64,000 nucleotides of DNA from an uncultured Latescibacterota bacterium. GTDB taxonomy: Bacteria > Latescibacterota > UBA2968 > UBA8231. The stretch is from assembly GCA_951813615.1 (NCBI GenBank), contig OX638377.1, positions 4,800,599-4,864,598 on the forward strand, written 5' to 3'. The notes under the pieces are model-generated. The model did not search any database, had not been told where the DNA came from, and worked only from the letters and a program-made list of their open reading frames with translations. This document shows, one piece after another, positions 3,830-8,882 of the stretch; the stretch's first letter is position 1; the number at the start of each line of letters is the position of its first letter. A program made the translations under genes and the position numbers.

Positions 3830-5866
3830 ATGAAGCATTTACTCTTTAGTGCCTTGTCCCTCGTCCTCGTCGCGGCACCCGTGCTGGCTGATGACGAAGC
3901 GGATGAAGCCGATATCTATGAAATGGGCGAGATGATCATCACCGGCTCCAAGCTGCCGCAGACGCCGGGGAATGTGACCCAGAAAATCTCCATTATCACC
4001 GCCGACGAGCTGGGCTCCTTAGTCCTCGGCAACGGCAACCTAGCGGAGATTCTCTCCTACAGCCCGGGCAACTTCGCCAACGTCCTCTCCCGCAACGACG
4101 CCAACTGGGGGTCGTCCGGCGGCTTGGCGCACACCTACAAAGGGTACATGCTCGACGGCCTGCCAATCGACTCCTTCGTCGATCTCCAAAGCCTCGATTC
4201 GTGGGCCTTCCAGCGGGTCGAAGACCAGCGCGGCTCGGCCTCGGTGCTCTATCCGACCTATCTGGCCATGGACTTCGCCGGCAATCAGTCGCCGCTGGCG
4301 GGGACGGCCAACTTCATCCTCAAGGAGCGCGTCGAAAGCACTCGCACCAGTGCCTCGGCGTATTACGGCTCCTACAACACCCTCGGCGGGCGCTTCTTCC
4401 ACCAGCGCGCCGCCGGCAATCTGCACCTCTTCTTCGGCGGGCACCACGAGGACTCGGACTACACCTACTACGGAACCTTTGACGACGACGGCAACAGGAA
4501 CTCCTGGCTGAATATGGATGACGACCCCGAGTACGAGAAAACCAAGATGTACATGCGGGGAACCTACTTCCTCGACGACAGCGGCCAGCGGGCCTCCCTC
4601 TACGCCCACCGCACTTGGCACACCGGCGATGCCGGCCGCATCAATCGAGACTTCGGCCACACCTACACCACCCTAAACGCCGGGTACACGAACCCGATCT
4701 CCGACAAGGCCACCCTCCAAGCCAAGGTCGGCTACCGCGACTACGTGCGCCGCTGGGAGGAGGATGGCATCTGGGAGGATCCCCAAAGCCGCCAACTGCG
4801 CTCGGAGGACGGGGTGGACCAGTCCGTCATGCCGGCTGATCTCTCCCTCTCCATCATAACCCGAGAAGCAGACGTACTCACCGTGGGTGCCGATTATCAA
4901 CTCGCCTCGTACGCGACCTCGCGCGAGATCGGCGAGATAAGTCCCGGCAACGACGCCACCGCCACCGCCGTGGGATTCTACGCCCAAGAAGAGTTCCGCT
5001 TGGATGCACTCATCCTGCGGGCCGGGGCGCGCTACAACATCATATCGCACGACATCGACCTGTTGCAGGGTGCTCCCCCGAACGAGACCAGCAATTCTTG
5101 GAACAAGGTCCTCTACAGCGCCGGGGCGCGCTACAACCAGAGCGATGACCTCTCAGTGTTCGCCAACATCGGCACCAGCTTCAAGGCACCCTCCCTCAAA
5201 TCGGTGGGCGGCACCGTTCCCCCGGACGGCAAGGGCGGCCATCTCCCGAATCCAGATATCAAGCCGGAGTCGGGGACCAGCATCGACGCGGGGGCGAACT
5301 TCCGTCCGACGGAAGGAGTGCAAATCGGCCTGCGCGGCTTCAACATCATTATCGACGACCAGATCGTGCAGCGGGTGGTGCCCGTGGAAGAAGACGATCC
5401 GGCGCAGTCGCAGGATATCAACGCCGGCAACACCGCGACCACCGGCGTGGAGCTAGAGGTCTCCCACCGCCTCGACGAGACCGTGGAGTGGTTCGCCAAC
5501 TACACCTACACCAACGCCGAGGTGAAGGAGCACCTTGATGAGAACCAAGTCGGTGCCAAGATCAACTTCGTACCGGAAAGCGCCATTGGTGCCGGGGTTC
5601 ACCTCACCTTCTCGCAGGGCTTGCGGGCGACGGTCACCGTGCAGTCCTACAGCGGCATTTACCAAGACATCAACAAGGACGCCGAACCCCTCGACGGGTA
5701 CATGCTGGTGAACGCTCGCCTTGAGCAGCGCGTCCGCACCCAAGACGGGTACGACCTGAGTCTCTATCTCGAACCGTACAACATCACCAACCAGGCCTTT
5801 GAGATGCCTTGGGGGTTTGCGGATCCGGGCTTCTCGGTCAACGGCGGCCTGATGGTCTCGTTCTAG
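3830..5866 (+). CDS. TonB-dependent outer-membrane receptor
   Basis: The 678-residue protein has a signal peptide (about 1-20, ending VLADD) and a plug domain near residues 30-165 containing EMIITGSKLPQT and DGLPIDSFVDLQS. A long beta-barrel of alternating aromatic strands follows, ending in NGGLMVSF with the expected terminal Phe. It imports a ligand across the outer membrane using TonB energy. Ahead of the ATG is AAAGGAG at 3816-3822, spacing 7. The ABC importer genes downstream point to one uptake system for a siderophore, corrinoid or haem-like compound. No riboswitch is visible in the 84 bp upstream. The barrel does not reveal the ligand. Confidence 0.9.
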   Translation: MKHLLFSALSLVLVAAPVLADDEADEADIYEMGEMIITGSKLPQTPGNVTQKISIITADELGSLVLGNGNLAEILSYSPGNFANVLSRNDANWGSSGGLAHTYKGYMLDGLPIDSFVDLQSLDSWAFQRVEDQRGSASVLYPTYLAMDFAGNQSPLAGTANFILKERVESTRTSASAYYGSYNTLGGRFFHQRAAGNLHLFFGGHHEDSDYTYYGTFDDDGNRNSWLNMDDDPEYEKTKMYMRGTYFLDDSGQRASLYAHRTWHTGDAGRINRDFGHTYTTLNAGYTNPISDKATLQAKVGYRDYVRRWEEDGIWEDPQSRQLRSEDGVDQSVMPADLSLSIITREADVLTVGADYQLASYATSREIGEISPGNDATATAVGFYAQEEFRLDALILRAGARYNIISHDIDLLQGAPPNETSNSWNKVLYSAGARYNQSDDLSVFANIGTSFKAPSLKSVGGTVPPDGKGGHLPNPDIKPESGTSIDAGANFRPTEGVQIGLRGFNIIIDDQIVQRVVPVEEDDPAQSQDINAGNTATTGVELEVSHRLDETVEWFANYTYTNAEVKEHLDENQVGAKINFVPESAIGAGVHLTFSQGLRATVTVQSYSGIYQDINKDAEPLDGYMLVNARLEQRVRTQDGYDLSLYLEPYNITNQAFEMPWGFADPGFSVNGGLMVSF

Positions 5867-5879
5867 CGCCGCGACCACC

Positions 5880-5941
5880 GTAGGGGTAATCCTTATGATT
5901 GTCCTAAAAAAAGCAAGGGTGCCCACGAGGGATGCCCCTAC
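5880..5941. repeat. Inverted GTAGGGG/CCCCTAC intergenic repeat
   Basis: GTAGGGG(TAATCC) at 5880-5892 pairs imperfectly with (GGGAT)GCCCCTAC ending at 5941. This forms an intergenic palindrome-like repeat just after the TonB receptor stop codon. A similar CCCCTAC-ended sequence lies upstream of pyrD (57874-57897) and a weaker one at 51826-51850, suggesting a REP-like dispersed family. Confidence 0.45.
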
Positions 5942-5964
5942 GATACGGCCTCAACTAATGATTA

Positions 5965-6093
5965 ACGTGAGTTCGGTATAAGGAAGGGCAAAAGCTCGAT
6001 AGCTATTTTTTAGGGAGTGCCTTATCTTCACAATCGTGTGTAATTAAGCAGATCACGCCTCCAGTTAGAAGGTCGCTTAACCCGAACTCACGT
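5965..6093. mobile_element. MITE-like element, 129 bp, 12-bp terminal inverted repeats, 8-bp target duplication
   Basis: ACGTGAGTTCGG at 5965-5976 and its exact reverse complement CCGAACTCACGT at 6082-6093 bound a 129-bp non-coding segment. With one gap the inverted repeat extends a few bases further (TATAAG against GTTAAG). The direct repeat AATGATTA flanks the element at 5957-5964 and 6094-6101, as a transposition target duplication would. The duplication may be 9 bp, because a T precedes both copies. No transposase is encoded. The right-hand duplication contains the start codon of the downstream binding-protein gene. Confidence 0.85.
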
Positions 6094-6094
6094 A

Positions 6095-7117
6095 ATGATT
6101 ACATCCCTCTCCCTTCTTCTCGCTCTCCTGCTCACCGACACTCCGGCGCTCGCAGAAGGCGTGGCGGTCACCGATTTCCGCGGTCGTCGCATCGAACTGG
6201 ACAAGCCGGCCGAGCGCATCGTCTGCCTGCTCGAAAGTGCCCTCACCGGCCTGTACATGCTCGGGGCTGAGTCGCGTCTCGTCGGCATTTCGACCAATAT
6301 CTACCAAGAAAGCGTCTATGCGTACTACGCGGCGATGGACGAACGCATCCGCGAGCGCACCCTGGCGACACCGGGAAACTGGGACTTCGTCAACATCGAG
6401 AGCGTGGTGGCCCTGCAGCCGGACCTAGTCATTATTCGGACGGCTCAGGAGGAGTCGATCGCCGCGCTCGAAGAGAAGGGAATCCCGGTCTTCGGAGTCT
6501 ATATCGAGCGCTTCGCAGACATTCACCGCGAGATCACCGCCCTCGGTGAGCTGACCGACACCCAAGAACGAGCGGCCGAACTCCTCGCCATTGCCCAAGA
6601 GGAGTTGGACGCGGTGCAGCGCAAGACCGCCCTCGGCGCAGGAGAAGCCAAGCCGCGCGTGTACTTCATGTGGGACCAAGGACCGCTGGAGACGGCCGGC
6701 CGCAACAGCACTGCGCAGGAATTGATTGATCTGGCCGGAGGAACCAACGTGGCGGGTGGCAGCGAACTCGAGCACCTCGTCGTCAATCTCGAAAACGTCC
6801 TCGTCTGGAACCCAGAGCTAATCGTCATGTGGTGCAACGACCGGCTCGATGCCGAGGACATCGGCGAGTTGTCCGGCTGGCGCTCGCTTGCAGCCGTGCG
6901 CAACGGGCGGGTGCGCGAACTGCCCGACCCCTTCTCGTGCGACTTCTGGACCCTCAAATACATCTTCACCGTCGATCTCGTCGCCCGCTGGTGCCATCCA
7001 GATCGCTTTTCCGCAAGCGACCTAGAAGAGCTGCGGGCCAACCTGCTGAACAAGCTATACGGGGGACGGCTCGGAGAGCTACCGTCTATCTCATACGGGA
7101 CGGGGGACGGCCCGTGA
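6095..7117 (+). CDS. ABC importer periplasmic binding protein (FepB/BtuF class)
   Basis: This 340-residue secreted protein has a signal peptide at residues 1-20 (MITSLSLLLALLL...ALAEG). A Peripla_BP_2-type two-lobed fold follows, with VTDFRGRRIELDKPAERIVC near the start, VALQPDLVII in lobe one and LVVNLENVLVWNPELIVMW in lobe two. It should carry an iron-chelate, corrinoid or haem-like ligand from the TonB receptor to the membrane permease. The start codon lies inside the duplicated target site of the MITE-like element, so the natural leader has been displaced by 137 bp. The nearest Shine-Dalgarno-like string (AGAAGG, 6068-6073) is too far away to be convincing. Translation may therefore be weak or rely on sequence supplied by the element. 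It overlaps the permease by 4 nt. Confidence 0.87.
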   Translation: MITSLSLLLALLLTDTPALAEGVAVTDFRGRRIELDKPAERIVCLLESALTGLYMLGAESRLVGISTNIYQESVYAYYAAMDERIRERTLATPGNWDFVNIESVVALQPDLVIIRTAQEESIAALEEKGIPVFGVYIERFADIHREITALGELTDTQERAAELLAIAQEELDAVQRKTALGAGEAKPRVYFMWDQGPLETAGRNSTAQELIDLAGGTNVAGGSELEHLVVNLENVLVWNPELIVMWCNDRLDAEDIGELSGWRSLAAVRNGRVRELPDPFSCDFWTLKYIFTVDLVARWCHPDRFSASDLEELRANLLNKLYGGRLGELPSISYGTGDGP

Positions 7118-8121
7118 ATAGCGTTTTCCTCCGCCGGCTTATTTACATCCTGCCACTGCCGGTTCTCTTTGGCTCCCTGCTGCTCGGCCCTTCGGCCAGC
7201 GCCGAGGCGGGAAAGATTCTCTCCTGGCTCTACGGCTTACTCTTTCGCGAGGCAGCCGCCGGGAGCGAAGAGGCGCTGGTGGGGACAATCGTGTGGGAGG
7301 TGCGGATGCCGCGCATCCTCCTCACCTTTCTGGTGGGAGGAGCCTTGGCCGCATCCGGCAATGCCTTGCAGGCGATGTTTCGCAATCCCCTCGTGGCCCC
7401 CTACATCCTCGGGCTTTCCTCCGGTGCCGCCTTTGGCGCAGCTTTAGCCCTAGTTCTGCCGTTCCTACCAGTCCAGCCGACGGCCTTTGGCTTTGGCCTG
7501 TTCGCCGTGGGCTTGGCTTACTTTTTAGCCCGCACCCGCAAGACCGTGTCGGTCGTCTCCCTCATTCTCTCGGGAGTGATCGTCACTGGGATTTTCACCG
7601 CTCTGCTGACCATCGTCCAGTTCCTCTCCGACCCGTACAAGTTGCAAACCATTGTCCATTGGACTATGGGCAACCTGCACAATTCGAGCTGGGCCAAGCT
7701 GCGCTCCGCAGCCCCGGGGGTGGGCATCGGCGTGATCTGGCTCTTTCTCTTTCGCTGGCGCATGAACGTGCTGGCCCAAGGCGACGACGAAGCGCGCGCG
7801 GTTGGCCTAAACCCAGAGCGGGAGCGGGTGCTAATCCTCATTCCAGCGACCTTAGCCGCTTCGGCGGCGATTGCCGTAGCCGGCGTCATCAGCATGATTG
7901 GCCTCGCCGTGCCGCACATGGTGCGCATGATGCTAGGCCCGGACAACCGCCACACCCTGCCGGCCTCCTTTACCTTTGGCGGAGCCTTTCTGCTGCTGGT
8001 CGATACCTGCTCGCGCACGTTGGCCTCCTTTGAAATCCCGGTCGGGGTCTTCACCACCCTGCTCGGTGGGCCGTTCTTCATCTTCCTCCTCAAAAAGGCG
8101 CGGATCGGATGGGAGACCTAA
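7114..8121 (+). CDS. FecCD-family ABC transporter permease
   Basis: A 335-residue polytopic inner-membrane protein of the FecCD/BtuC class. Family signatures are MPRILLTFLVGGALAASGNA, FRNPLVAPYILGLSSGA and the C-terminal ISMIGLAVPHMVRMMLGPDN region, which holds the coupling helix that contacts the ATPase. The start is GTG at 7114, overlapping the stop of the binding protein, with a G-rich GGGGGA about 7 nt upstream. It forms the membrane channel of the importer and overlaps the ATPase gene by 13 nt. This is a tight translationally coupled operon. Confidence 0.92.
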   Translation: MNSVFLRRLIYILPLPVLFGSLLLGPSASAEAGKILSWLYGLLFREAAAGSEEALVGTIVWEVRMPRILLTFLVGGALAASGNALQAMFRNPLVAPYILGLSSGAAFGAALALVLPFLPVQPTAFGFGLFAVGLAYFLARTRKTVSVVSLILSGVIVTGIFTALLTIVQFLSDPYKLQTIVHWTMGNLHNSSWAKLRSAAPGVGIGVIWLFLFRWRMNVLAQGDDEARAVGLNPERERVLILIPATLAASAAIAVAGVISMIGLAVPHMVRMMLGPDNRHTLPASFTFGGAFLLLVDTCSRTLASFEIPVGVFTTLLGGPFFIFLLKKARIGWET

Positions 8122-8882
8122 CACCGGTCATCCAAGTAGAGAATCTCTCCTTTGCCTACGAAGAGCGGCCGATCCTCAACGACATCTCGCTGGAGATCCC
8201 GGCGGGACAGTTCACCGTCCTGCTCGGCAAGAACGGCAGCGGTAAATCGACGCTCATGCGCATTCTCGGCGGTTTCCTCGACTTCAAAAGCGGCAAAGTG
8301 CATATCATGGGGGAAGAGATCCGCTCCTTCTCGTCCCGGCAGCGGGCCCGCATCCTCGGCTTCTTGCCCCAGCACCACCGTCCAGTTTTTCCCTTTTCCG
8401 TGCAGGACGTGGTCCTAACCGGCCGCGCCAGCTATGTCTCCTATATCCCCAAGCAGGAGGACCTAGCGGTCTGCATCACAGCGCTGGAACGGGTCGGCAT
8501 TGTCCATCTGAAGGAGCGTCCCTATACCGATCTGTCGGGGGGGGAGCAACAACTCGTCCACATCGCTCGGGTTCTGGCCCAGCAGCCCCGTCTCATCCTC
8601 CTCGACGAACCGAGTTCGCACCTCGACTTCCTCAACCAAGCGCACCTGCTGCGCCTGATCCGCGAGTTGGTCGATGCCGACCTCACCGTCCTCGCCATCT
8701 TGCACGACCCCAACAGCGCCTTCCTCTATGGAGATCACTTCATTTTCCTCAAGGATGGTGCCGTGGAGCGGCTGTCAGCGGCCGAGCGGCCGTGGGACCG
8801 CGACTTTCTGGAGCGGATCTACGACACTAAAATGGATTCGATTCCCTACGGCGACCGCGCCTTCGTGGTGCCGAAGAGGTGA
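8109..8882 (+). CDS. ABC transporter ATP-binding protein (iron-chelate/cobalamin type)
   Basis: A 257-residue ABC ATPase. Walker A is LLGKNGSGKST near residue 38, the Q-loop is FLPQHHRP, the signature is LSGGEQQLVHIARVL, Walker B is LILLDEPSSHLD, and the H-loop is AILHDPNS. The H-loop has His-Asp-Pro-Asn, a common variation in the FepC/BtuD group. It powers import of the ligand captured by the TonB receptor and binding protein encoded just upstream. Length is normal for the family (about 250-270). Confidence 0.93.
   Translation: MGDLTPVIQVENLSFAYEERPILNDISLEIPAGQFTVLLGKNGSGKSTLMRILGGFLDFKSGKVHIMGEEIRSFSSRQRARILGFLPQHHRPVFPFSVQDVVLTGRASYVSYIPKQEDLAVCITALERVGIVHLKERPYTDLSGGEQQLVHIARVLAQQPRLILLDEPSSHLDFLNQAHLLRLIRELVDADLTVLAILHDPNSAFLYGDHFIFLKDGAVERLSAAERPWDRDFLERIYDTKMDSIPYGDRAFVVPKR

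Follow-up and report, generated by a model that had tools for sequence, protein, structure and literature searches.

We found a 129-bp MITE inserted across the start codon of an ABC periplasmic binding-protein gene in a Latescibacterota genome, within a 64-kb stretch of DNA that we refer to as the window and from which positions are counted unless the genome is named. The element occupies 5965-6093 on the forward strand, and the ATG (6095-6097) lies inside the right-hand copy of the duplicated target (6094-6101), as the initial annotation had noticed. We are highly confident in the overall account, in which an IS982-derived MITE, presumably mobilised in trans in the past, entered an AT-rich start site, as a target preference would predict, and would thereby have weakened translational coupling within a transporter operon.

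The sequence at 5957-6101 reads, in order, AATGATTA, ACGTGAGTTCGG...CCGAACTCACGT and AATGATTA, in agreement with the earlier description of a 129-bp segment with perfect 12-bp terminal inverted repeats between 8-bp flanking repeats. The left inverted repeat, ACGTGAGTTCGG (5965-5976, forward strand), continues into TATAAG, while the right one (6082-6093, reverse strand; ACGTGAGTTCGGGTTAAG from the outside inward) carries TTAAG, each as in the corresponding end of the parental insertion sequence (IS) described below. The end 12-mer has no other perfect match anywhere in the 64-kb window. As a T precedes both the left and the right flanking repeat, the forward-strand duplication allows two readings: 8 bp (AATGATTA; 5957-5964 and 6094-6101), with 6093T assigned to the element, or 9 bp (TAATGATTA; 5956-5964 and 6093-6101), with 6093T assigned to the target. 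The element holds no ORF of at least 80 aa and no transposase gene. With a length below 300 bp, inverted ends, a target duplication matched by an empty site, dispersed copies and ends like those of a parental IS, the 129-bp segment is a MITE.

Its host gene belongs to a tight operon, as had been stated before. The upstream gene encodes a TonB-dependent receptor (3830-5866, forward strand; PF00593 and PF07715), the stop codon of which serves below as the reference for start spacing. The binding-protein gene (6095-7117, forward strand; Peripla_BP_2, PF01497) is followed on the same strand by 7114-8121, which, from the type of operon, we take to encode an ABC permease, and by an ABC ATPase gene (8109-8882) with the Walker A motif GKNGSGKST in its translation. 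Both downstream genes have overlapping starts, the permease GTG overlapping the binding-protein stop as GTGA (7114-7117). The binding protein itself is an intact ORF of 340 aa, which bears out the claim that the insertion left the protein unchanged. In three relatives (L072, L073 and L074), the homologous ATG is the sole ATG, GTG or TTG start of its open frame, which supports 6095 as the true start. Two in-frame starts farther upstream, which appear when the flanks of the MITE are joined (ATG 5897 and GTG 5919), were rejected as the native start, as the aligned leaders of the same three relatives contain no in-frame ATG, GTG or TTG upstream.

Relatives also preserve the empty site. The closest comparison is with L074, deposited as Gemmatimonadetes bacterium SB0661_bin_36, in which the binding protein is 92% identical over residues 1-340 and a clean single-copy site, GGCCCCAACTGATGGTTACATCCC, stands where the window has GGCCTCAACTAATGATTA, the element and TAATGATTACATCCC; the target occurs once in the relatives, as TGATGGTTA in L074. 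The element is likewise absent from the orthologous site in the aligned relatives L072, L073, L075 and L076. As it is missing in all relatives seen, the insertion is specific to the lineage of the window, and this, together with the perfect duplication, indicates a fairly young event.

Searching the 6.27-Mb single-contig genome (metagenome-derived, judging by its relatives, with an estimated contamination of 7%) with a 145-bp BLAST query returned 43 hits with E<=1, which cover the element or its ends, and the genome contains ~25 16-bp end matches with at most 2 mismatches. Several complete copies carry perfect AT-rich duplications of 6-9 bp: 219 bp at genome positions 137876-138094 (TTAGAGTA), 173 bp at 1461559-1461731 (TAATAAT) and 418 bp at 4741980-4742397 (TTTTTA), as well as two copies in the same genus (L136, AAAGATTA; L152, TAAAAATA). 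Around other well-ended copies, no duplication can be made out clearly, and we take these to be older or rearranged. Of 100 genomes from the phylum and beyond, 6 gave matches to the MITE family, all of them in the genus of the window. The 43 matches, the near-exact ends, the copies with their own duplications and the empty site in relatives rule out a chance arrangement, and what had been called a MITE-like insertion is borne out.

Some copies lie in more complex settings. At 4133357-4134307 of the genome (G000:C1; L063), two 151-bp copies flank ~650 bp with a truncated reading frame that looks MarR-like by eye; both outer flanks read GGGACA, the two neighbouring genes sit close together without this unit in the relative G001, and the whole is possibly a composite MITE-MITE unit. 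One MITE end piece is found at two positions separated by 2.77 kb, each time with attatttaac as its left flank (G000:C1:3195483 and 3198254; L064), and with an IS5-like transposase frame in between, which suggests a local duplication. In another same-genus sequence (L139, position 1218), a copy seemingly ends the preceding 400-aa ORF, the TAA being formed by a flanking TA and the first A of the element.

The parent of the MITE is an IS982-family insertion sequence. A near-complete member lies in a genome of the same genus (G003; L133, 3470-4472): a 1003-bp element with the ends ACGTGAGTTCGGTATAAG / ACGTGATTTCGGTTTAAG, of which the left is identical to that of the window MITE over 18 bp, flanked by TATATTA and containing a frame of 291 codons with one premature stop (TAG). 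Translated with X at the stop, this frame scores 160.6 bits against the IS982 transposase model NF033520 (cut-off 130) and 154.2 bits against PF13612. A subterminal asymmetry, ATAAG on the left and TTAAG on the right, recurs in the 1003-bp IS, in the window MITE and in the majority of complete copies. IS982 elements average 996 bp (range 845-1282 bp), with inverted repeats mostly starting AC and direct repeats of 2-10 bp (PMC7335449), and the 1003-bp element, with ends ACGTGAG... and the duplication TATATTA, agrees in each respect. The likeness to this family lies in the parental element of the genus, with its 1003-bp length, 291-codon DDE transposase, AC-start ends and 6-9 bp duplications (2-10 bp in the family; PMC7335449), whereas the window element is 129 bp long without a transposase gene, and even the near-complete parent has its premature stop. 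The 173-bp copy, a direct intermediate on the way from IS to MITE, keeps the 3' end of the transposase in frame (14/28 aa identical). Similarly short, transposase-less elements with IS982-parent ends and with intermediates keeping part of the parent are known as MITECca01 of Cardinium, derived from the IS982 element ISCca4 (PMC9769881). That family, however, comprises 169 copies of ~240 bp with intact parents (PMC9769881), as opposed to the 129 bp and diverged copies observed here, in a genome with no transposase over cut-off.

The possibility had been raised of an active non-autonomous element in this genome, and this is doubtful. The closest sibling of the window copy in its own genome is 82% identical over 134 bp; no near-identical one was found there, so the direct donor was not seen. 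This genome yielded only fragments, with neither a complete parental IS nor an IS982 transposase scoring above the curated cut-off, and none of 64 genomes of the phylum had an intact parent. Among the fragments, a 68-aa transposase N-terminus lies within an identical end at 4621554. Given the absence of an own-genome transposase over cut-off, the MITE family looks stranded in this genome. The IS5/IS982-like transposases of the genome (292- and 297-aa frames) were rejected as its mobiliser, as they fall below the threshold for IS982 and only 3195920-3196222 is near a matching end. In the own genome, a 2.77-kb segment between both inverted ends (G000:C1:4621554-4624326; L061, 1055-3827) contains a transposase N-terminal remnant and a 775-aa ORF of Ig-like repeats, with no matching duplication, and contig C13 of G003 (L133) contains, within ~4 kb, a cluster of several IS982-type ends together with pieces of decayed transposase.

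The position of the insertion may reflect target choice. The duplications given above are 93% A/T, the genome is 58-60% GC, and 0.39% of the 9-mers in the window have at least 8 A/T. AT-rich targets are few, and one would naturally expect them in intergenic gaps and at start and stop codons. We infer from a small number of sites that a preference of the transposase for AT-rich targets of 6-9 bp, rare at this GC content, placed the ATG inside the duplication. We propose that an IS982-type DDE transposase sharing the ends of the MITE mobilised it in trans, as the shared ends and the fragments suggest, and that this source survives in the own genome only as fragments. The non-autonomous MITE transposed into AT-rich TAATGATTA (ancestrally about TGATGGTTA) across the start codon; as the target was duplicated, neither the ATG nor any part of the protein was lost.

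Comparison of the leaders points to an effect on spacing. Counted from the TonB stop, the start lies 3 nt away in L076, 8 nt in L075 and 58-59 nt in L072-L074, where a palindrome intervenes; in the window it is 91 nt away with the flanks joined and 228 nt with the MITE. The window palindrome is an older REP-like repeat, GTAGGGG...CCCCTAC (5879-5942, no strand assigned), in the gap that separates the TonB stop from the insertion; such a palindrome precedes the start in L072, L073 and L074, each time with a different inner sequence, and L075 has none. Bounded by GTAG and placed in an intergenic gap, the window palindrome resembles GTAG-tagged REP palindromes (PMC3733652). Shine-Dalgarno motifs precede ~40% of the window genes (longest-ORF starts) versus 8-10% at control offsets. 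For the window gene, the Shine-Dalgarno duplex energy is +0.1 kcal/mol, compared to -2.7 in L074, +0.7 in L075, -2.2 in L076 and -5.4 in L072. Hence, no clear Shine-Dalgarno precedes the homologous ATG in L074, L075 or L076, and L072, where the value is ambiguous, may belong to a lineage with a weak native one.

These data give no support to the earlier view that the insertion replaced a native leader with its ribosome site: a recognisable Shine-Dalgarno is missing in every relative, the leader before the insertion was already a palindromic repeat, and in the more distant relatives the start follows the TonB stop by 3-8 nt, the ancestral spacing. A related claim was that the element must supply translation signals or that expression now depends on a weaker mechanism. 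The element brings no Shine-Dalgarno; it is more likely that ancestral stop-start coupling was loosened, by the palindrome first and the MITE second. By moving the start farther from the TonB stop, the MITE would weaken such reinitiation as still follows translation of the TonB gene, and the binding protein would now be translated by initiation without a Shine-Dalgarno, at an AT-rich start region of moderate structure. Spacing and Shine-Dalgarno absence are no measure of expression, and most likely the insertion was near-neutral while weakening translational coupling.

A stronger role for the MITE has some predicted structure in its favour. Its 12-bp ends and the near-palindromic duplication (TAAT-G-ATTA) could fold as an mRNA hairpin over the start and repress translation: the DNA fold has z = -3.86, the 20 nt leading up to the ATG are predicted to be 17% unpaired in RNA with the MITE versus 62% with the flanks joined, and the opening energy rises from 1.9 to 6.9-7.5 kcal/mol. 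The same energy, however, is 8.7-14.7 kcal/mol in the MITE-less relatives and has a median of 11.4 in the other window genes, placing this gene at the 15th percentile. As these values are higher, the start is not unusually closed and no strong repression is predicted; occlusion by a hairpin was set aside, and we regard control of the gene by the MITE as unlikely. Equally unlikely is a broader scenario in which the palindrome and then the MITE switched the gene from stop-start coupling to independent initiation lacking a Shine-Dalgarno, while a hairpin of the MITE tuned its expression, so that the stoichiometry of the transporter operon was rewired stepwise. It is still less probable that the MITE imported a promoter or ribosome site in place of native signals. 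Admittedly, the element sits immediately before the start codon, and IS982 elements can influence how neighbouring genes are expressed (PMC7335449), yet a promoter and terminator scan of 5700-6300 found nothing, including no sigma-70-like promoter (a scan that may not cover the promoters of this phylum), and the MITE end has no Shine-Dalgarno (+0.1 kcal/mol). A conserved regulatory RNA or leader, to which the stable fold directly before a transporter gene might point, has virtually no standing, as the 64-kb window has no Rfam match and the reading is ruled out both by the relatives seen, every one of which lacks the segment at the orthologous position, and by its copies with duplications, dispersed over unrelated places.

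Overall, the insertion of an IS982-derived MITE at a start codon is neat but ordinary and needs no new mechanism; precedent for such MITEs exists in Cardinium (PMC9769881). The case brings to light, within a single Latescibacterota genus, an IS982-derived MITE family for which a near-complete parent, intermediates and empty sites can all be seen. Furthermore, the stop-to-start distances of 3-8, 58-59 and 228 nt offer a natural series in which to study the loosening of translational coupling by repeats within an operon.
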